A DNA stretch of 37,643 bases from Blastocatellia bacterium (GTDB lineage: Bacteria; Acidobacteriota; Blastocatellia; Pyrinomonadales; Pyrinomonadaceae). Below, one piece after another: positions 4,073-14,705 of the stretch. Location: the NCBI GenBank assembly GCA_013697915.1, contig JACCVY010000012.1, positions 1 to 37,643 on the forward strand, read 5' to 3'. The stretch's first letter is position 1. Every line of letters begins with the position of its first letter. A program made the translations under genes and the position numbers. The notes beneath the pieces were generated by a model, which saw only the letters and a list, made by a program, of their open reading frames with translations, was not told the DNA's origin and searched no databases.

Positions 4073-7000
4073 TTATTGTCTTGTAGAATCCGATCCGCGT
4101 TTATCCGCGGCCAATGTTCTTTCGCTCTTCACTCTGGAGCGCAGCCATTGGCGGCCAGCGCGACAAATGCTTAAGAAGCTGCACATGCGGCAATGCGGTG
4201 CAGGCCGCACTGGAAACTCAACTGGCTCGTGCGAAGCAATAATATCCATCATTGCCGCATCAATTGCACGCGCGCAAGCGTCGCGAGAAAGCAATTCGGG
4301 CGGCAGGTAAAACTCAATATTCGGATCCAGAAAATGAAGCGTTACTTTAATGGCGGCGCCTTTTGCCGCAAGCGACGGTAGCAGATCGCTAACCGCCAGC
4401 GCGTAAGCCTGCATTTGCAATTGATAATCCGAGGCGGCAAGTCGCACCTGATCTTCAACAGAAACCGGATCGACGATTACCTCGGCCTCAACCGGCCCTG
4501 GCTCGAAGTCAAAAGCAAACTGATCAAGCCGATACTGGGACCGCGGGCGTTGCGGGGTCCCCAGCGGAGCAGCCCCGCTGGGGTGCTGTGCCGCCCGCAC
4601 TTCCTTCGCTACATTCATTGTTGAGTCCGCCTTAACGCTTGGCGGGCGGGACGCCCGCGGTCCCAGTGAAGAGTTTGAGGCTATCGTTCGCGGTCGCATT
4701 CGATTTGTCTTGAAATCAATAATCTCAACATCGAAACCTTTACCATCAGCCGCGGGGATGACCAGCAATTTATCAATCGCCCCGGTCAGGATTCCCAGCT
4801 GTCGTCGTAAGCGAAACGGCACTTCGCTCCAAAGTCCAACTTTGCCGCTCGGAAAACGCGTTGAATCTTCTGACTGAGAGCCATTCGCCGCAGGCAACAC
4901 GCCCACAGCTTCGCGCGCCTGCTCGACGCGCTCAAAGACACCACTCGATAAATAGTTTTCCGCCAGCGGTAACAACTCGGCGATAGCTACCTCGGTATCG
5001 ATCTCCATCAGGCGATCGCCAAGCTCCGCCTGCCGCAAGCGCAAGACGTCTGCAAAGCTCTGTTCCAGCAGTGCCCGTGTGTCGTCTTTTTTCTCGTACG
5101 TTTCGCAAAAGCGGTGAATGACCGCGCCCTTCAGCGTCGCCGTCAAGTTCGTCGGCGGCTCAGGCGCTTCGGCATCGTTCCAAACGGCCATTTGATCCGC
5201 CGACGGCAAATGCAGCACCCGATCGAAATAATATTGTCGCGGGCAACGCTGATAGTTGATTAGCTGCGTCACGCTAAAGCGATGAACTGCTGCGTCGAGC
5301 TCCGGTTCGATCTTGCGCAGCAGGGGAAACTCTTCGGCAAGAGAAACGACTTCTTTGTTAAGAGGAACGGGTAAAGGCTCGGCCGTGAGCTTTGCTTGTT
5401 GCGGCCGATCAATCAGGTTGGGGGTTATCTCGATTTGCACTTCCGGCGCGAGATCAACTACGCCACTCTGCGGTTGCGCCTGCAATTCAAGCGACTGCCA
5501 AATCCATTTCAGCCAGGTGTCGCCTTTGCCGTTCAGACTTTCAAAGTCTTTAGTTGTACCGGAAAAAATCAAGCGGTCTTCGGCGCGCGTTGCCGCTACA
5601 TACAGCAGGCGCATGCTCTCAAATTGTTCGCGCAACGCCTGACGGTCCTCGAAAGTTTTGAAGGTACAACCGGCCACTAGCTTGCCGCGCCCATCAGGCA
5701 CTTTCAAAGTCAGACCACGATGTCGATCCAGCAGGAACCAGTTGTCGGGAACTCTTGAATAACGTTGCAGCTCGGGGATGATGACGACGGGGAACTCCAA
5801 ACCCTTGGCCTGATGAATTGTCATCAAGCGCACGGCGTTGGTTGCTTCATCGATCTGTCCCTCACTCTCGCGGCTGCCGATAGCTTCAAACTCTTCAACG
5901 TAGCGGACAAAGTCGCGAATCAGATGCGCACCCGATCTTTCAAACCGTTCGGCCAGCGTAAACAGCCGCTGCACGTTTGCCAGCCGTTGCGCGCCATCAA
6001 AGTTCGCTGCGATGACGGTCATGAACTCAGATTGCTCGACGGCATATCGCAACAAGCTGCCGATGCCGTAGTTGTGGCGCCGCGCGATCAAGCTTTTGAT
6101 CAAATTGGCGGAGCGTTCCAGCAGTTCATGCTCATCGTCACTAATAAAAGCAACATCTGCGTGTCGCTTAAGAGCGTGGAAAAGATTTCGCGTTTGGCTG
6201 AAGTGCAGCATTGGATCTGTAGTCTCAAGTTCATCGAGCCACGGCGCGCAACGTAAAGCCAGCAACGCGTTGTCTGAAATACCGCACAACGGCGAACGCA
6301 ACACCGCCGCCAACGCCAGCTCGTCAGTCTTGTTATCCAGAAACCGGAGCAACTGGATTAGATCGGTTATTTCTTCGCGCTCATAAAAACCGCGACCGAG
6401 CACAGTTTGATAAGGAATGTTGGCGCGGCGAAAAACGGATTCGTAGACCCCTACGTTTGTCATCGCGCGAAACAACAGCGCGATGTCGCTGTATTTCGGT
6501 GCGTCCTCACCTTCGGTTAGTTCAATGATTCGTCGTGCCAGTTGTTCCGCATCCAGCTCGCGGGAACTTTGGTCCAACTTCGGATCATCATCGTCACCCG
6601 AGCTTTCAGTGGTAATCAGCAAATCAACCAGCGGCCCACTATCGCGCAACTCGCGCTTTGCTTCGCTGAACTCATGTTCAACGTAGCCAAGCTGCAGGCG
6701 TTCGTCGGCCGTCACTTCTTCCTTCGGCTGGAACAACCGATGGAAAAGGTGATTGAAGAAATTTATCAGCGGCGGCTGGCTGCGAAAGTTAAGCTGCAAC
6801 GATTTTTCTTGGCCGCCAGCTGCGATCAGGGTTGCGGTCATCTCACGAAACACATCGACGTCAGCCCCGCGAAAGCCATAGATCGATTGCTTGCGATCGC
6901 CCACAATGAATAGGTTCGCGCTGTCACGTTGCGCCGGTCGCAAAGCGAGCCGCTCGAGCAACTGGCGTTGTACGTTGTTCGTATCCTGGAATTCATCGAC

Positions 7001-8092
7001 CAGGAAAAACTTGTAGCGCTCCGAAGTGCGGGCGATGACTTCGGGTCGAGTTAACAATTCGAGAGTGCGCAATTCGAGATCGTCAAAATCGAGTGCGGAC
7101 AACTGCTGTTTTTCGTGATTGAGGCGCTGATCGATCCTCTCCAAAATATCTATCAGCTCCAACGCATATCGTTTGGCGAACATGTCCAAACACGTTTGCG
7201 GCACGCGACCCAGCAAATCCTTTTCCCAGATCAAGGCGTCCACGGTTTGGACATATTCCTTGAAGTCGCCGCGCGCCTGCGGTCGCAACTTGCGAAACTC
7301 CTCTACAGCTCTGCAATAGTCGGCAAGCTTCTCGTGTTGTGGAACGTTACCAATCAACTCTCGCAAACCCGGCCATTTGGAGCTCACTTCAGCATGATTA
7401 ACTCGTGTCGCCGGCGTGGTGCGGCGCAGGCGCAGAAAGTCATCCATTGCTCGCGACAATTCAGCGAGCGCCTGATCGTAATGCCGATCGGATGCATGAT
7501 GCTGTTCAGTCTTTAACCTTAAATCCGCAAACGACAAACCCTGGCCGCGCACTTCGCGATAAAGGTGGCCCAGGCCATCAGCCAATCTTCCGCGCCCAAC
7601 GCCAAGTGTCAGGCGCGAAATCTCAACATGGTTAGCCGAAAGAAATTCTGTCAGTACTTGCTCGACCGTAACTTCCAGCAACATTTGCGCGCGGTGTTCG
7701 TCAAGTAAGGTGAACTGCGGATCCACACGCGCCTCAACCGGAAACTCGCGCAACAGGCGCGCGCAAAAACCGTGAATGGTTGTTATCACCGCCCCGTCGA
7801 GCGTGCGCTTGTAATTCAACCAGCGCTTTCGTTCATCGCCTGTAGCAGTTTGCAGAATGTGGTTGAGGCGTGACCGCAGACGCTCGCGCATTTCGTTGGC
7901 AGCGCGATTGGTAAAAGTAATGGAGACAATTTGATCGATGGAAAGCTTTTGCGAACGCAGAATGTGCAGGTAACGCTCAACCAGGACCGATGTCTTGCCC
8001 GAGCCCGGGCCCGCGGTGACCGAAATGTGCCGGCCCAGCTCATAGGCGGCCGCAGCTTGTTCAGGTTGTAACTCGCGCTTCTGCGTCGACAC
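4073..8092 (-). CDS. addA: AddA-type UvrD/RecB-family helicase-nuclease
   Basis: This 1339-residue subunit of an AddAB-type enzyme unwinds and degrades DNA from double-strand ends to start recombination. Superfamily 1 helicase motifs are intact: Walker A AGPGSGKT (27-34), FLVDEFQDTN (near 365), GDRKQSIYGFRGAD, TIHQAKGLEFPVVI and LLYVAATRAEDRL. The C-terminal RecB-like nuclease has GAIDKL, EIIDFKT and YQLQMQAY. A Cys near 947 and CRMCSFLSIC near 1300 look like a [4Fe-4S] ligand set. Two oddities stand out. A palindromic element (4534-4667) encodes residues about 1142-1186 between two nuclease motifs, and a repeat fragment encodes the last residues. The start is GTG; addB lies 191 bp upstream in the same direction. 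Confidence 0.9.
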   Translation of the reverse strand: MSTQKRELQPEQAAAAYELGRHISVTAGPGSGKTSVLVERYLHILRSQKLSIDQIVSITFTNRAANEMRERLRSRLNHILQTATGDERKRWLNYKRTLDGAVITTIHGFCARLLREFPVEARVDPQFTLLDEHRAQMLLEVTVEQVLTEFLSANHVEISRLTLGVGRGRLADGLGHLYREVRGQGLSFADLRLKTEQHHASDRHYDQALAELSRAMDDFLRLRRTTPATRVNHAEVSSKWPGLRELIGNVPQHEKLADYCRAVEEFRKLRPQARGDFKEYVQTVDALIWEKDLLGRVPQTCLDMFAKRYALELIDILERIDQRLNHEKQQLSALDFDDLELRTLELLTRPEVIARTSERYKFFLVDEFQDTNNVQRQLLERLALRPAQRDSANLFIVGDRKQSIYGFRGADVDVFREMTATLIAAGGQEKSLQLNFRSQPPLINFFNHLFHRLFQPKEEVTADERLQLGYVEHEFSEAKRELRDSGPLVDLLITTESSGDDDDPKLDQSSRELDAEQLARRIIELTEGEDAPKYSDIALLFRAMTNVGVYESVFRRANIPYQTVLGRGFYEREEITDLIQLLRFLDNKTDELALAAVLRSPLCGISDNALLALRCAPWLDELETTDPMLHFSQTRNLFHALKRHADVAFISDDEHELLERSANLIKSLIARRHNYGIGSLLRYAVEQSEFMTVIAANFDGAQRLANVQRLFTLAERFERSGAHLIRDFVRYVEEFEAIGSRESEGQIDEATNAVRLMTIHQAKGLEFPVVIIPELQRYSRVPDNWFLLDRHRGLTLKVPDGRGKLVAGCTFKTFEDRQALREQFESMRLLYVAATRAEDRLIFSGTTKDFESLNGKGDTWLKWIWQSLELQAQPQSGVVDLAPEVQIEITPNLIDRPQQAKLTAEPLPVPLNKEVVSLAEEFPLLRKIEPELDAAVHRFSVTQLINYQRCPRQYYFDRVLHLPSADQMAVWNDAEAPEPPTNLTATLKGAVIHRFCETYEKKDDTRALLEQSFADVLRLRQAELGDRLMEIDTEVAIAELLPLAENYLSSGVFERVEQAREAVGVLPAANGSQSEDSTRFPSGKVGLWSEVPFRLRRQLGILTGAIDKLLVIPAADGKGFDVEIIDFKTNRMRPRTIASNSSLGPRASRPPSVKADSTMNVAKEVRAAQHPSGAAPLGTPQRPRSQYRLDQFAFDFEPGPVEAEVIVDPVSVEDQVRLAASDYQLQMQAYALAVSDLLPSLAAKGAAIKVTLHFLDPNIEFYLPPELLSRDACARAIDAAMMDIIASHEPVEFPVRPAPHCRMCSFLSICRAGRQWLRSRVKSERTLAADKRGSDSTRQ
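4093..4115. repeat. Partial CGCGGAT-family repeat inside the addA 3' end
   Basis: These 23 bp match the outer end of the right arm of the 3131-3263 element at 21 positions. They are translated in addA as part of the tail TLAADKRGS, just before the stop at 4073-4075. Confidence 0.7.
4534..4667. repeat. Palindromic element inserted within the addA coding sequence
   Basis: Perfect 17-bp inverted repeats (4534-4550 and 4651-4667, ACTGGGACCGCGGGCGT and its complement) bound 134 bp. Inside is a second palindrome, CCCCAGCGG...CCGCTGGGG, near 4557-4582. The reading frame of addA passes through without a stop and reads as a Pro/Arg/Ala-rich linker (GPRASRP, GAAPLGTPQRPRSQ) unlike the surrounding nuclease domain. 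Confidence 0.8.
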
Positions 8093-8283: not shown

Positions 8284-11200
8284 TCAAAATGTCCTGCTGT
8301 TCTTCCTGTCGATCCGATAGCGATCGTAGCGGCACACCGCCGCGAAATCACAAAACCGGCACGTCTTTTTCTTTTCCGAAGGATTGACGTAGAAATGGCC
8401 GGCGCGCATGTGATCGAGAAAGTCCCAAATCTTTGCGACAGCGTTTGCGCGAATCTGTTGCCAGTCGTCTTCTGACATCACGCTGTTGGTGCGGCCGTTG
8501 AGTCCTGAATAATTCAATGCCGCGGCGCGGTGCAGCCCGCGATTGCGCCGCTCGTTGCCGCCGCGAATAACGTAGTAGCCACCACCGGCAATCCGGTGAT
8601 CGGTAAGCAGTAACTTTTCCAGTGCTTCAAGATAAATCGGCAACTGCAGACTGCGTCCCGACTTTATGTCTTCAAGGCTGGCGCCAGACGAAAGTTTGTA
8701 ATCGTAGGCAATCAATGTCTTATCGCTGGCCACGTCGACGCGATCGATTTGCCCGCTAATCTTTAATGTTTCCGTCCCGGTGGCAGTTGTTCTGGTTAGC
8801 TCCAGTGGCTCCGGCCTGGAATTGGGATCGCGGGCCGTTGACCTTGGCCCACCAAACGCAAGTTCAAAATATTCCGGCACAACGCCGGCGGCCGCAGAAT
8901 GTTCCTGAATCTCCAGCTCGTACAACAACACCTGATCCAATAGAATTTTGCGTATCTCGCGATCGATCTTCCAGATTTGCTTGTTGAGCGGCGGCACTAC
9001 GCGCTCATGCTCGTCGAAGACTTCATCGGCGATCCCGGCAAGTTCGTTACGCAGTCCCTCGCAATCAACTTCCGTCAGACGCTCGCCACGATGGCGCTCA
9101 AAAAAACGTCGCAGAATATCGTGCAACAGTTTGCCCGCATCGATTGCCTGAAGATCCAATGCTGCTTCACCCCGCGGCTCGAGCTTCAACACGCGTTGCC
9201 CAAAAAAGCGATAGGCACAGTTGCCATAGACGCCGAGACCGCTGGCGCTTAGCACGTAGTCGGCGCCAAACCGCTGTTGCAACAAAGCAATCAGGTGCGG
9301 ATCGGTGATCTCGCCATCGTATGGACCAAATGATGCGCGCACGCGTTCGTGCTCAATATTAATGCGGCGCAGCGCGGATTTGGTTAGTAGACTTTCGCCG
9401 CGGGCCAGGTCCGACAATTTACTAATACGCGCCTGCGGTAACAGCGGCTGTTTCTCGCCGCGATGCAGGTGACGTTCCTGCTGGCGAACCAGTGCAATAC
9501 CCAGCTCGCTGCTGGTTGAAACTGCCGGCAAATTTTTGCCTTCATAGTCGCGGCGAACGGTTTCCGTGGTGATCGCCAACGGCGCCACTGCGCGCCGCAA
9601 TTCATCTATGTAATAAGAAGCAACAGTTTCCGCGTCGTCTTCCAACAACAGGGGCCGAGTAAGATATAGCCGCTCTGTAGCCCGGCAGGCAGCCTGATAA
9701 AAATAGTGTTCCTCTTTCAGCAGCGTGGCCGGTGAAATGTCTTCCAACGTAATTCCATCGCGTTTGAGACGTTCGCGTTCTTCGTGCGGATAGATCCAAT
9801 CGCGTGACGCGCGCAGCGGAAAGCCGCCCTCGATTAAACCCGCCACAAAGATAGCGCGGAACCGAAGACCGCGGACATCGGTGGCCTCGAGTACCGCCAA
9901 CCCGCCGCGATCCGCGACGCCAAAAACCTGTGACTGTGAACCCAAACAGCGACGCGCTTCTTCGACGAAGGTCGACATCTTTGTTGTCGAGCTCTCACTG
10001 GCGGCGGCAATTTCGATGCTCTTAATCGCCGCAGCAAAAGCGCGACGCAGTGCTTCGAGACTGTTGAAATTGAGCATCGCCTGCGGCAGCTCTTCCTCAC
10101 CGACCAAATTATTTACTCGATGGCCGATTTGCTCGCCGAAACTGAACTGCTCGAACAGGCTCATTAGCGCGCGCCGCAATTCCGCCGGGGCGCCAGCGCG
10201 CGGCAATATTTGCACGCGCGCCGCAAACGCCTGAATTATGAGCGCCGTCCAGGCGAGTGCAGCCGGGTGCACATCGTGCGACGGACGTCTTTTCTTTTCG
10301 ACGTCTTTCTCTTCAATTTTTGCAGTCTCTGCGTTTTCAATTTGATCAGCTTCATCCGCTTCGCGCGCAGATTCAGCGTTGTCAATGTTCAATAGTTCGC
10401 GCGTGGCCGCGGCCGTCGGCAGCTCCTGAATCAATTTGCGCGCCCGCGTCAGCCAATCGCTTACGCGCAAGTCGCTGCCGACATAGGCGAAGGCATTCTC
10501 GAGCGCGTCAGCGTCCCAGATGCCGATTCGGTAACGATTCTTGAGTCGCTCGATTTGTTTCCAGTCGGGCTGTGAACCGTTCTCTGCAAACAAGGCAGAG
10601 CGCTCGGCGTCAAAGGTTGCCGCCAGCCTTTCAACCTCTTTATCGTTCAGGCGAAAGTATTCCGACTTGATCAAGTCGGCGAGGTCGGACGTTCTCGGCG
10701 CAGCATCTTCATCGCGAGAGAGTTCCTCCACAATTGCCAGCAACTTAAGCGCAGCGCGATTCGCCGGAATGTCGCCTGCCTCAAGGCGCAACTCAAGATT
10801 GCATGGCAGCGACTCTTCGCGCATGACGCGTGCAATGGTTTCGGCGTATGCCGCACGCTGGCGTACGACCAGAGCAATGTCAGACAGCTTGAATCCATCA
10901 ACCAAAATCAGTTGTTTGATCTGCTTGGCGATAGTGCGAATTTCGGTGTCGCGATCGCCGCACTCCAGGTATCGGATTTCTCTTGCCGGTTCGCCCTCGG
11001 CGGTTTCTTCGTGGTCCGCAGGGGCAGGCATTTCTTTAGCAGGATTGAAAAGATTTTCGCGCAGCCCAGCGAGCGCGCCGTCCACAGCGATGGAACTTTC
11101 GCCGCTGTGTTTTATTTCAAAGGGTGCGATAGCTTTTAGTTGGTCGATGGTTTGTTGAAAAGGAAGAAAGATCTCCGGATTTCGCTGATCGTTATTCAGA

Positions 11201-12009
11201 TTAACGATCGCCTCGGAAACCTGCGGAATCAGACGTCTCAGGATTTCGCCCTGCACTGGAGTAAAGTCAAAAAAACCGTCCAGCACCAACAGCTTGACGT
11301 TGGGCAGCCAGTCATTCCCTACCGATCGTCCATTAATCTCACCGTCAAGAATTGAAACAGCGCGCAACTGATCGGCGTCCGCGTCGGTGAGGTGATGCCG
11401 ATCGAGCAACTCGCAATAGAGCGAATAGATCAGCGCCACGTCGCTATCGAAATCTACCTGACGCGGAATCAATTGTGAACCAATTCGACGCGCCGGCGCT
11501 TGTTCTTCATCCGCGCCAAGATCAGTAACCCTTCGTGCTACGATCTCTGCGAACTCTTGCGGCCTTTTGCCGGCGCGCTGAATTTCACCAATCAGCGTGG
11601 CAAGGGAATTCACGCAGCCTTCGCGTGCCGCCAGGCGATCGAGCGCTTTCAGTTTGCCTTCATCTGCCAGCCGTCTCAGGATTTGGGAAACCAGACTTCG
11701 CTTCAGTGGAAACTCTTCGCGATCAATCGGCACTCGCGTTGCCAGGCGCCCGCCGGTTTGTTCATCGACGGCAGTTGAGACAATTTTTCTGACGAAGCCA
11801 CGAAAAAGGTAGACGGGGAGTTCGCCCCATAGCCCGGCATTTTGCGCGCCGTCGAGAATTTGTTCAGTGACCAGTTCGAGCAGCGGATGAGAAGCAGCGA
11901 GGTAAAGGAATGTTTCAGACTTGCCTTCGGCGACAAGCTCAGCACACCGCTGGATGAGACGCGAGCGATTGTTGCCGAGGAGAGGACCTAACCAAATTTC
12001 TTTTGACAA
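8284..12009 (-). CDS. addB: AddB-type helicase-nuclease partner subunit
   Basis: This 1241-residue protein is the likely partner of AddA and lies directly upstream of it. The N-terminus lacks a canonical Walker A (GPLLGNNRSRL stands where GxGSGKT would be), so the motor is probably inactive and serves in DNA handling, as in RecC. Helicase-like remnants include VYLFRGFVRKIV, VLDGFFDFTPVQ and IFVAGLIEGGFP. The C-terminal RecB-family nuclease looks intact: GQIDRVD, IAYDYKL and LQLPIYLEAL. A Cys near 931 (YGNCAYRFFGQ) and CRFCDFAAVC near 1217 fit a [4Fe-4S] cluster, a hallmark of AddB. It begins 43 bp after the rmuC stop, suggesting an rmuC-addB-addA operon. Confidence 0.85.
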   Translation of the reverse strand: MSKEIWLGPLLGNNRSRLIQRCAELVAEGKSETFLYLAASHPLLELVTEQILDGAQNAGLWGELPVYLFRGFVRKIVSTAVDEQTGGRLATRVPIDREEFPLKRSLVSQILRRLADEGKLKALDRLAAREGCVNSLATLIGEIQRAGKRPQEFAEIVARRVTDLGADEEQAPARRIGSQLIPRQVDFDSDVALIYSLYCELLDRHHLTDADADQLRAVSILDGEINGRSVGNDWLPNVKLLVLDGFFDFTPVQGEILRRLIPQVSEAIVNLNNDQRNPEIFLPFQQTIDQLKAIAPFEIKHSGESSIAVDGALAGLRENLFNPAKEMPAPADHEETAEGEPAREIRYLECGDRDTEIRTIAKQIKQLILVDGFKLSDIALVVRQRAAYAETIARVMREESLPCNLELRLEAGDIPANRAALKLLAIVEELSRDEDAAPRTSDLADLIKSEYFRLNDKEVERLAATFDAERSALFAENGSQPDWKQIERLKNRYRIGIWDADALENAFAYVGSDLRVSDWLTRARKLIQELPTAAATRELLNIDNAESAREADEADQIENAETAKIEEKDVEKKRRPSHDVHPAALAWTALIIQAFAARVQILPRAGAPAELRRALMSLFEQFSFGEQIGHRVNNLVGEEELPQAMLNFNSLEALRRAFAAAIKSIEIAAASESSTTKMSTFVEEARRCLGSQSQVFGVADRGGLAVLEATDVRGLRFRAIFVAGLIEGGFPLRASRDWIYPHEERERLKRDGITLEDISPATLLKEEHYFYQAACRATERLYLTRPLLLEDDAETVASYYIDELRRAVAPLAITTETVRRDYEGKNLPAVSTSSELGIALVRQQERHLHRGEKQPLLPQARISKLSDLARGESLLTKSALRRINIEHERVRASFGPYDGEITDPHLIALLQQRFGADYVLSASGLGVYGNCAYRFFGQRVLKLEPRGEAALDLQAIDAGKLLHDILRRFFERHRGERLTEVDCEGLRNELAGIADEVFDEHERVVPPLNKQIWKIDREIRKILLDQVLLYELEIQEHSAAAGVVPEYFELAFGGPRSTARDPNSRPEPLELTRTTATGTETLKISGQIDRVDVASDKTLIAYDYKLSSGASLEDIKSGRSLQLPIYLEALEKLLLTDHRIAGGGYYVIRGGNERRNRGLHRAAALNYSGLNGRTNSVMSEDDWQQIRANAVAKIWDFLDHMRAGHFYVNPSEKKKTCRFCDFAAVCRYDRYRIDRKNSRTF

Positions 12010-12052
12010 AACATCGACTCCGAACGTGAGACTCCCGGCAAGAACTGGTGTT

Positions 12053-13456
12053 TCACTCTTTTCCTGTCGCTGCCGTCGCAGCCAGATTATTGGGCGCCTC
12101 TGTCTCAGTTAAGCGCGCGGCTAAGAGTAACGGCGCTTCTATGAGTGCGGTTGCTTCTTCAATTTCGTCGCCCCCGGGTGGCATTTCCTGAACGTCCTTA
12201 AGTCTCCGTTCAATCGTACGAGACTTCCTCGCAGCGTTGTCTATAGTGTTACTTGCTTCATCCAATTTCTTCTTTGTTTTTTCGAGGAGGTCGCCGAATT
12301 TTCCAAATTCCGTTTTGACAGCGCCAAGCAGCTCCCACACTTCACTCGAACGCTTTGCGATTGCCAACGTTCTAAATCCGACCTGTAGGCAATTCAACAA
12401 AGTTGCGAGAGTGGTCGGACCAGTAACCATCACTCGATAGTCCCGGTGAAGGACCTCGCACATTCCCGGACGACTAATGATCTCGGCGAACAATCCTTCT
12501 GTCGGAACATACATAATTCCAAAATCAGTTGTATTCGGGGGATCAAGGTACTTATCGCGGATATTCTTCGCCATCTCTTTGACTCTGCGCTCAAGTTGTT
12601 TGGAAGACTCCTCAATCAATTGGGGATCACATTTGTCGCGAGCGTCAATCAGTCGCTCGTAGTCTTCTTTCGGAAATTTTGCATCGATGGGAAGCAGGAC
12701 TTCCTGCTTGCCACTGCCATCCTGACCCGGCAGTTTTAGCGCGAATTCAACCCTTTCAGTGCTTCCTTTTCTGGTGGCTATATTTTTTTCGTACTGGTTC
12801 GGGGCCATGACTTGTTCGAGCATATTCTCAAGCTGCCACTCCGCCAGAGTTCCTCGAGTCTTGACGTTACTCAGAATGCGCTTCAGATCTCCAACTCCGG
12901 ATGCGAGAGACTGCATTTCTCCGAGGCCCTTATGTACCTGTTCCAAACGCTGCACCACTATGTTGAACGATTCTCCTAACCTCTTTTCGAGAGTACTCTG
13001 AAGTTTTTCATCGACCACCGTTCGCATTTGATCCAGCTTTCGGCTGTTGTCTTCCTGCAACGCTGAAAGCCTTCCTTCTATCGTCGTTCGCATTGTCTCG
13101 AGGCGTCTTTCCGTGGCCTCCGTCAAAACTCCGATTTGTCGGGCAAACGAATCAAGTTGCTGCTTCTGACCCTCCCCAATTTGTGCGATTCGCGTCGAGT
13201 TCGTTTCGCCGGCGGTACGAATGGCCTGCCCTAATTCCTGTCTTGAGTCTTTTGCGACCGAGTTCATCTCCTCTCGGTTACGCGACAGCTCGTCCTTGAT
13301 TGCGGTCTCAATTCTTTGCTGCCCGCTATCAACAACTGTGAGTTTTTCTTTGAGTTCCGCAGAAGAATCTTTGCGGCGTGTTGCCAGCAAAACGATCAAT
13401 AAAACCAGGTTTGCTGCGCCGATCAGGATAAGGATAATGATTAGATTCTCATTCAT
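12053..13456 (-). CDS. rmuC: DNA recombination protein RmuC
   Basis: This 467-residue protein has one N-terminal membrane helix (about residues 5-26, IIILILIGAANLVLLIVLLA), a long coiled coil (about 35-185) and the RmuC domain (about 190-400). Family landmarks are RGTLAEWQLENMLE, LPIDAKFPKEDYERL, DFGIMYVPTEGLFAEI and VTGPTTLATLLNCLQVGFRTLAIAKRS. RmuC proteins are putative nucleases that limit inversions and recombination at short inverted repeats, which is notable in a genome this rich in such repeats. It appears to be the first gene of an rmuC-addB-addA operon. No strong Shine-Dalgarno is visible before the ATG at 13456. Confidence 0.93.
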   Translation of the reverse strand: MNENLIIILILIGAANLVLLIVLLATRRKDSSAELKEKLTVVDSGQQRIETAIKDELSRNREEMNSVAKDSRQELGQAIRTAGETNSTRIAQIGEGQKQQLDSFARQIGVLTEATERRLETMRTTIEGRLSALQEDNSRKLDQMRTVVDEKLQSTLEKRLGESFNIVVQRLEQVHKGLGEMQSLASGVGDLKRILSNVKTRGTLAEWQLENMLEQVMAPNQYEKNIATRKGSTERVEFALKLPGQDGSGKQEVLLPIDAKFPKEDYERLIDARDKCDPQLIEESSKQLERRVKEMAKNIRDKYLDPPNTTDFGIMYVPTEGLFAEIISRPGMCEVLHRDYRVMVTGPTTLATLLNCLQVGFRTLAIAKRSSEVWELLGAVKTEFGKFGDLLEKTKKKLDEASNTIDNAARKSRTIERRLKDVQEMPPGGDEIEEATALIEAPLLLAARLTETEAPNNLAATAATGKE

Positions 13457-13524
13457 AGTTCGTAAGTCTAGCAGATGGTGTTTCGGAAATGAAACAGCGT
13501 CGCGTTAACGGGCTATAGCGTACC

Positions 13525-13667
13525 AAAGAGCGGGGGCAAGCCCGCCTTCCCAACCTGAGAGACTTCCGTTGTCACACATTGATTTACTTTGAAAGCCATT
13601 CAACCAGAAATGAACGCTCGATTGTAATCAGCTTATGGTTGGGAAGGTGGGCTTGCCCCCGCTCTTT
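13525..13667. repeat. MITE-like element with 31-bp inverted repeats (GCGGGGGCAAGCC family)
   Basis: Arms 13525-13555 and 13637-13667 are inverted copies with one mismatch in 31. The element lies between rmuC and the exonuclease gene and ends 10 bp from the exonuclease stop. A shorter relative is at 19521-19599. Apart from this element the 13457-13676 gap shows nothing. Confidence 0.85.
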
Positions 13668-13676
13668 CTGACCGGC

Positions 13677-14705
13677 TCATCGCCCAAAGCAACCAACCAT
13701 CCGCTCATAAACTTTCCGCGTCACGCGCACGTCGTTGAGGTTGTACTCGCGAATCTCTGCAAGTTTTCCCGACTGGTAAAGATCAAAAACCTTGCTACCC
13801 TCGGCTGTGGCTGTCTTGCTTGATTCGATTCCCAGCGCCCAGGCTATGTCGTCGAGACTGACAAAACGCTTCGCGCCCAGCCACCAGTGATGCATCGTGT
13901 CAAATACACCCCGCACCCGAAACTCAGAAAGATCCACCAGCGGCTTGGCCGAGATGCAATGGACCAGGCAGCGCTGAAAAATAAACGGCAAGTCGAAACC
14001 GATCAGGTTATGACCGACCAGTTCATCCGTCTCGCAATCAAAATCTTTCAGCAAATCGAGAAAGGCCAGCAGCGATTTTTTCTCATCCTGCTCAAGGCCG
14101 GCTTCGTCGATGCCAAACACGTGTTCGCTGTGAGGCAACTCCACCCCCAGGTCAATTCCGGCGATCGCTCCCGCGTGCACGGCAATGGAAAGTATGCGGC
14201 CCGAAGCGGCGCTTAGCGACCCCAGTTGATAACAGCGCTCTTCTTCGATCGCGATGTCTTCCAGATATCGTTGCTGTTGTTCCAACCGCATGTTTCCGAG
14301 TTTCCAAAGCCGCTCGAGTTGTGGCCCAACCCGCTCGCGAAAGTCGGCCAGCGTCAACGTCTCAATGTCCATCGTGTAAGCCCGTGGCAGCACCGGATCC
14401 GCATTCTGATGTTCGCGGTATTGCTCGAGGGTGATGGGGCGATACTCGCTGACTACAAACTGCGGGCGCTCTTGATAGGTTTCGAGCGTGCCGGCGATGC
14501 CAAACAAACCGGGCTTAAGCTCTTTCCAGATGTCGAGTGTCTCGCCCCAAATTTTCAACGGCAGCGAGCCGGTCGCGTTGCGCGCGGTGGCGTCGCAAAA
14601 GCGTTTGCCTTGTTGCGTTCGTTTCTCGCGGACTGAGGTGACGACGACCATCAGCCACAACTCTTCGCCCTGCGGCATTTCAGGAATAGGAATGTTGCCT
14701 CTCAT
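13677..14705 (-). CDS. OB-fold plus DnaQ/PolB-type 3'-5' exonuclease
   Basis: The 342-residue protein joins an N-terminal OB-fold nucleic-acid-binding region (about 10-95; ATARNATGSLPLKIWGE then GIAGTLETYQERPQFVV) to a DEDD exonuclease. Exo I is Asp113-Ile-Glu115 (YTMDIETL), Exo II is GHNLIGFD (231-238), and Exo III is Y321NLND325. The OB plus nuclease order recalls YhaM-like single-strand exonucleases, but the catalytic part here is DnaQ-like, not HD. It probably trims single-stranded DNA or RNA ends in the cytoplasm. It is divergent from the MutH-like gene. No strong ribosome site is seen before ATG 14705. The OB call rests on sequence style and is less sure than the exonuclease call. Confidence 0.8.
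   Translation of the reverse strand: MRGNIPIPEMPQGEELWLMVVVTSVREKRTQQGKRFCDATARNATGSLPLKIWGETLDIWKELKPGLFGIAGTLETYQERPQFVVSEYRPITLEQYREHQNADPVLPRAYTMDIETLTLADFRERVGPQLERLWKLGNMRLEQQQRYLEDIAIEEERCYQLGSLSAASGRILSIAVHAGAIAGIDLGVELPHSEHVFGIDEAGLEQDEKKSLLAFLDLLKDFDCETDELVGHNLIGFDLPFIFQRCLVHCISAKPLVDLSEFRVRGVFDTMHHWWLGAKRFVSLDDIAWALGIESSKTATAEGSKVFDLYQSGKLAEIREYNLNDVRVTRKVYERMVGCFGR

Follow-up and report, generated by a model that had tools for sequence, protein, structure and literature searches.

The 134-bp palindromic stretch at positions 4534–4667 of the window (the whole 37,643-nucleotide stretch of DNA analyzed here) is a REPIN, consisting of two inverted 25–26-nt REPs around a 43-nt spacer. 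It is translated in frame, as residues 1142–1187, within the minus-strand gene for the helicase-nuclease AddA. REPINs are miniature non-autonomous mobile elements built from two inverted REP hairpins. We consider it very probable that this copy goes back to an ancestral REPIN insertion in the AddA linker, that the translated loop is roughly neutral, and that a RAYT was the likely mobilizer. The insertion would have occurred in the ancestor of several species of the genus, into a flexible and poorly conserved linker of the nuclease domain. Because the REP ends are stop-free in all three frames, in-frame insertions can survive; they would be translated as a disordered Pro/Arg/Ala-rich loop, which is probably roughly neutral for AddA. 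The RAYT would recognize the REP hairpin in single-stranded DNA and probably cut at the conserved CT that precedes the hairpin. Recognition by the RAYT, or conversion with other copies as the source, would maintain the REP ends.

The host gene is an ORF of 1339 amino acids (4073–8092, minus strand) that stays open through the element. It matches the profiles UvrD-helicase, UvrD_C, and PDDEXK_1, i.e. a UvrD-like helicase and a PD-(D/E)XK nuclease, with AddA among the best matches; the top NCBIfam match is addA_Gpos, with a score below the equivalog cut-off. The element is bordered by the nuclease motif EIIDFKT (4706–4726, minus strand) on the upstream side of the linker and by the motif YQLQMQAY (4403–4426, minus strand) on the downstream side, which confirms the in-frame placement proposed in the original prediction. 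The perfect 17-bp inverted repeats proposed there were likewise confirmed by comparison of the arms (4534–4550 and 4651–4667), which are 100% complementary and lie 100 nt apart. The partner gene addB (8284–12009; PF21445 ADDB_N and PF12705 PDDEXK_1) is located upstream of addA on the same strand. Together with an RmuC-family gene and a PolB-exonuclease-like gene (8284–14705, minus strand), it is grouped with addA in what is apparently a DNA-repair cluster.

On the coding strand, the element starts with the canonical REP unit 1 (4642–4667; ACTGGGACC followed by GCGGGCG TCC CGCCCGC, in agreement with the consensus of 46 genomic units), continues with the spacer (4599–4641), whose divergence between species equals or exceeds that of the flanking addA sequence, and ends with the inverted REP unit 2 (4534–4598), all on the minus strand. 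The hairpin loop of unit 2 is replaced by a second palindrome (4552–4587, not assigned to a strand), which also stands alone at many other places in the genome. The 65-nt composite unit 2 recurs in the genome that contains the window (G000) at C49:29476 (94%) and C130:7366 (91%), and it is also present in the related genome G004. The 20-nt end pattern was expected 0.00 times in shuffles of the window, and folding of the element as a single strand gave, against shuffles, z = −6.3 as DNA and −5.1 as RNA. Since 134 is not a multiple of 3, an open frame requires an adjustment at the boundary or in the flank. The other intragenic copies measure 95, 107, and 120 nt. A single length class modulo 3 does not hold for these copies, as 134, 95, and 107 leave a remainder of 2 and 120 leaves 0.

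Genomic copies of the REP were examined as extracted loci. The genome of G000 (4.5 Mb, a MAG of 271 contigs) contains a total of ∼46 units that follow one consensus, ACTGGGACC-GCGGGCG-TCY-CGCCCGC. Conservation is at least 0.9 at most positions from −1 to 23 and drops sharply outside. The 16-nt core has 53 matches in the genome with two or fewer mismatches, compared with 4 for a reversed control. GGGACC precedes the stem in nearly all units, and CT is nearly invariant at the REP border. One unit (L102, GCGGGCA-TCT-TGCCCGC) retains the stem through a compensatory change. The extracted loci contain 12 full inverted doublets of 107–141 nt, and many other units have no recognizable partner. Dozens of further copies with the same ends are present in the genome, many of them intergenic, and these, along with the absence of the stretch from distant AddA proteins, bear out the proposed mobile-type repeat.

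We aligned AddA orthologues from related genomes, all of which are MAGs. The best-matching named relatives of AddA belong to MAGs of Pyrinomonadaceae, which places the window in this family (Acidobacteriota). In AddA proteins from across the class, DFKT is followed almost directly by the Y..QMQ helix, without an insert. Members of the genus possess a longer linker with a QFAFDF-like motif (4505–4522, minus strand, in the window) whose conservation in the genus includes members that lack the element. Four genomes from one subclade of the genus (G003, G005, G008, and G015) contain the linker and lack the element, so that the stretch is missing from one genus subclade as well as from distant orthologues. 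G004, whose AddA segments are 87–88% identical, has a canonical REPIN of 95 nt in this position, and G014 (72% identical AddA) carries the 134-nt composite there. The element is recognizable but decayed in G007, G012, and G009. G017 features a different palindrome at the linker site (L041), which is repeated dozens of times in its own genome. Judging from these alignments, the addA insertion is not recent, because the orthologous insert is found in two close relatives and decayed forms are found in three more.

In the addA tree, G000 clusters with G004, the genomes without the element (G003, G005, G008, and G015) form one clade with G013, and G009 falls outside the main clade. Parts of the C-terminal region of AddA from G009 are 72–79% identical to those of G007 and G012, compared with ∼50–65% to others (L039), and the remainder of the gene is much less close to these two genomes. 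Because of this similarity, G009 seems to have obtained the C-terminal part of its addA from a G007/G012-like source, through recombination between species. For the tree position of G009, an older insertion or losses were also considered; recombination fits better. Outside the linker, a member of the REP family occupies a second addA site, near residue 527 and in another frame, in G004, G006, and G002, and G001 contains, at a third site (L047), an unrelated repeat that recurs dozens of times in that genome. The repeats of G017 and G001 represent two further palindromic families, unrelated to the REP, and both are translated within addA.

The original prediction regarded a translated element of this kind as rare. 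This does not hold, as ∼13 Pfam-recognized genes of G000 carry REPs in frame and sister species have the second addA site. The genes are addA, recQ, thiC, and those for a two-FAD-domain oxidase, a MoaD-MoaE fusion, an FAD oxidoreductase, an AMP-ligase, a histidine kinase, a CHC2/Toprim protein, an M14 peptidase, a molybdopterin oxidoreductase, a 4Fe-4S protein, and a VWA protein. The REP is read in different frames, giving LGPRASRP in addA, GTAGVSPA in recQ, and WDRGRPAR in thiC. Some apparent in-gene matches were due to chance and were discarded, for example the RGTAGG motif of an LpxA-like protein (L192). Orthologues were compared for addA, recQ, thiC, and the FAD oxidoreductase; in these unrelated conserved genes, the in-frame insertion is missing from some orthologues. 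In the FAD oxidoreductase, G013 and G017 have no insert at the site, G000 and G004 have the REPIN described here, and G014 has a variant palindrome. In the recQ linker, the REP of this family is found in G000, G004, and G014, and G006 carries a composite. At the thiC site, RENLG...RDSLLHQH (L279–L293), most genomes compared show a different palindromic sequence, with distinct palindromes in G000, G002, G017, and G004/G006; by this comparison, the site is a hot spot of serial insertion.

Conservation within the addA element is concentrated in the REP parts. At 4-fold sites, 19 of 22 positions in the REP parts match between G000 and G014, compared with 32 of 104 in the flanking addA sequence (Fisher p = 1.7e-6), and between G000 and G004 all 13 of 13 match, compared with 80 of 125 in the flanks (p = 0.004). 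The spacer showed no excess conservation over flanking addA at 4-fold sites in either comparison. The similarity of the REP parts exceeds what would be expected of neutral coding DNA inherited vertically, which would suit independent insertions into a hot-spot linker, one for each species, in place of one ancestral insertion. The different repeat family taken up by the G017 linker and the several different palindromes at the one thiC site point in the same direction. However, the position and the flanking codons are identical, and the spacers align ungapped with 55–64% nucleotide identity, above the level of unrelated sequences. Independent insertions therefore appear rather unlikely to us.

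Among 162 genomes of the class that were searched with the REP pattern, G000 gave 47 matches, G004 gave 75, and G014 gave 26, and there were zero matches in G007, G012, and G009, the genomes with a decayed addA copy. In these three genomes, the residues encoded by the left REP are down to 25–75% identity. Because the synonymous sites of the REP ends are conserved where the family is present and the ends are decayed where it is absent, the ends seem to be constrained at the level of DNA. The pattern suggests that consensus ends persist only as long as the family is present in a genome, a match of zero copies with decay that rests on few lineages, one of which (G009) seems recombined in its C-terminal part. 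Conversion, re-insertion, or recognition-based selection could each account for the conservation of the ends. Orthologous copies in genomes with and without a REP population provide a natural experiment that separates DNA-level from protein-level constraint. We tentatively put forward, as a possibility that is still doubtful, that the intragenic REPIN is kept as DNA and not as protein, through RAYT-dependent conversion or recognition while the system lives, and that after its loss the ends decay and the loop stays in frame. If so, a repair gene would contain selfish DNA with a maintenance regime separable from that of the host protein, and one cause could underlie the recurrent targeting of addA, recB, and recQ across several phyla.

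A candidate for the mobilizer was found among the 13 Y1_Tnp genes of G000. One of them, with 225 codons, lies between inverted copies of the REP, each within about 100 bp. It is of the RAYT type (HUH, Y1_Tnp; PF01797, E = 3.7e-9) and contains the motifs PNHVH and YIENNPVKAGL. At the orthologous locus, G004 has the same layout of REPs and RAYT and G006 retains a remnant of it, and a relative of the RAYT in G010 adjoins variant REPs (GGGAGCGCAGGCG). The RAYT is the likely mobilizer of the REP. TnpAREP enzymes studied so far cleave at CT beside the REP (PMC8266576); in contrast to their substrates, the REP of G000 is without the GTAG tag that these enzymes bind.

The vicinity of RAYT and REPs might instead be a coincidence, with the element being of the Rickettsia type (RPE/WPE) and spreading without a dedicated transposase; we know of no transposase for RPEs. 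Indeed, the size (95–134 bp), the stop-free ends, and the in-frame spread in unrelated genes all match RPEs (PMC10969869). However, REPs lie on both sides of the RAYT gene in two genomes and a remnant of this layout exists in a third, a paralogous RAYT carries variant REPs, and by our own estimate the probability that REPs flank one of 13 genes by chance (∼46 units in 4.5 Mb) is ∼1e-5. We thus consider spreading of the Rickettsia type to be unlikely.

In an AlphaFold2 model of AddA residues 937–1321, based on five sequences and of low confidence (mean pLDDT 54.9), the motif strands and helices are folded, and model residues 195–273, between a strand (184–192) and a helix (276–301), are unstructured. 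The element corresponds to model residues 206–251 and lies entirely within this region. The model, though of low confidence, agrees with the element forming an exposed disordered loop between the nuclease motifs, as anticipated in the original prediction. The further claim that the element had been turned into a protein linker was overstated, as the linker is an older feature of the genus that tolerates inserts, and we found no sign of selection for the peptide.

Domestication of the insert would mean that AddA uses the peptide for spacing, docking, or regulation and that selection on the protein maintains it. This would explain why the frame is open in all six genomes with a linker insert, even where the DNA ends have decayed; the same linker also contains the conserved QFAFDF motif. 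However, this motif is conserved also without the insert, and the residues of the spacer are only 21–36% identical between G000 and G014/G004. The residues of the left REP have diverged in the three genomes from which the family is gone, other relatives have no insert or, in G017, an unrelated palindrome at the same place, and conservation is strongest at synonymous sites. Domestication is therefore very unlikely. An artefact of assembly or binning, conceivable for a 271-contig MAG, or a palindrome that arose by chance in GC-rich coding DNA, is refuted to near certainty by the orthologous insert in JAVEDP010000018 and JACMJZ010000003, which were assembled independently and match G004 and G014, and by an expected number of chance matches to the ends near zero.

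The REPIN in addA can be compared with several known systems. It shares with REPIN/RAYT systems (PMC3116915) and REPtrons (PMC8266576) the pairing of a short palindromic REP into inverted doublets that form a long hairpin, a RAYT-type HUH transposase gene with the same REPs on its borders, and a conserved CT at the edge of the REP. In contrast to these systems, the REP of G000 has GACC and no GTAG tag before the hairpin. Known REPINs are overwhelmingly extragenic, whereas in G000 the ∼13 Pfam-supported genes carry units. An extragenic location describes the known REPINs and not their mechanism, so that the element works like a REPIN with a departure. The unpaired GTAG at the palindrome end that defines the GTAG-tagged REP superfamily is absent from the REP of G000. 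It also falls outside the CGTC-tagged superfamily, as CGTC is confined to the junction of stem and loop and the REP has an associated transposase. Intragenic GTAG and CGTC REPs are known in frame, often in DNA-repair genes such as Xanthomonas recB and O. terrae uvrA (Di Nocera et al. 2013, PMC3733652), but the REP of G000 differs from them in sequence and carries neither tag. The Acidobacteria mentioned in that study have transposases flanked by TIRs (TIRYTs); apart from this, we found no report on REPINs in Acidobacteriota or Pyrinomonadaceae in the literature.

The RPEs of Rickettsia are the classic translated palindromes (PMC10969869), and WPE-like palindromes are located in frame at three places of Wolbachia addA (PMC4224334). 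They share with the present element a size of ∼100–150 bp and in-frame translation in unrelated genes, a likeness of behavior; in contrast to them, G000 has a candidate transposase and the host is not an intracellular alphaproteobacterium. The element represents a new REP family and a new host lineage of known gene-invading repeats. It brings Pyrinomonadaceae into the range of gene-invading palindromes and comes with a candidate transposase, which the CGTC REPs are without, and it adds an independent case of a recombination helicase-nuclease hosting such elements, after Wolbachia addA and Xanthomonas recB.

The AddA nuclease domain (4130–5284, minus strand) contains four conserved cysteines (Cys-950, Cys-1301, Cys-1304, and Cys-1310; YQRC ... 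HCRMCSFLSIC), an arrangement known from iron-sulfur RecB-like nucleases such as AddB. Among the genus members compared, and also in G017 and G043, the QFAFDF motif follows the pattern Q-[FILA]-[AST]-[FL]-x-F; we take it to resemble sliding-clamp-binding motifs of the QLxLxF type. In G049 and G053, from another family of the same class, a variant REP (CTGGGAGCGCGGGCGTC) is organized in local clusters, for example, with four units 22 bp apart at C1:241883–241965 of G049.
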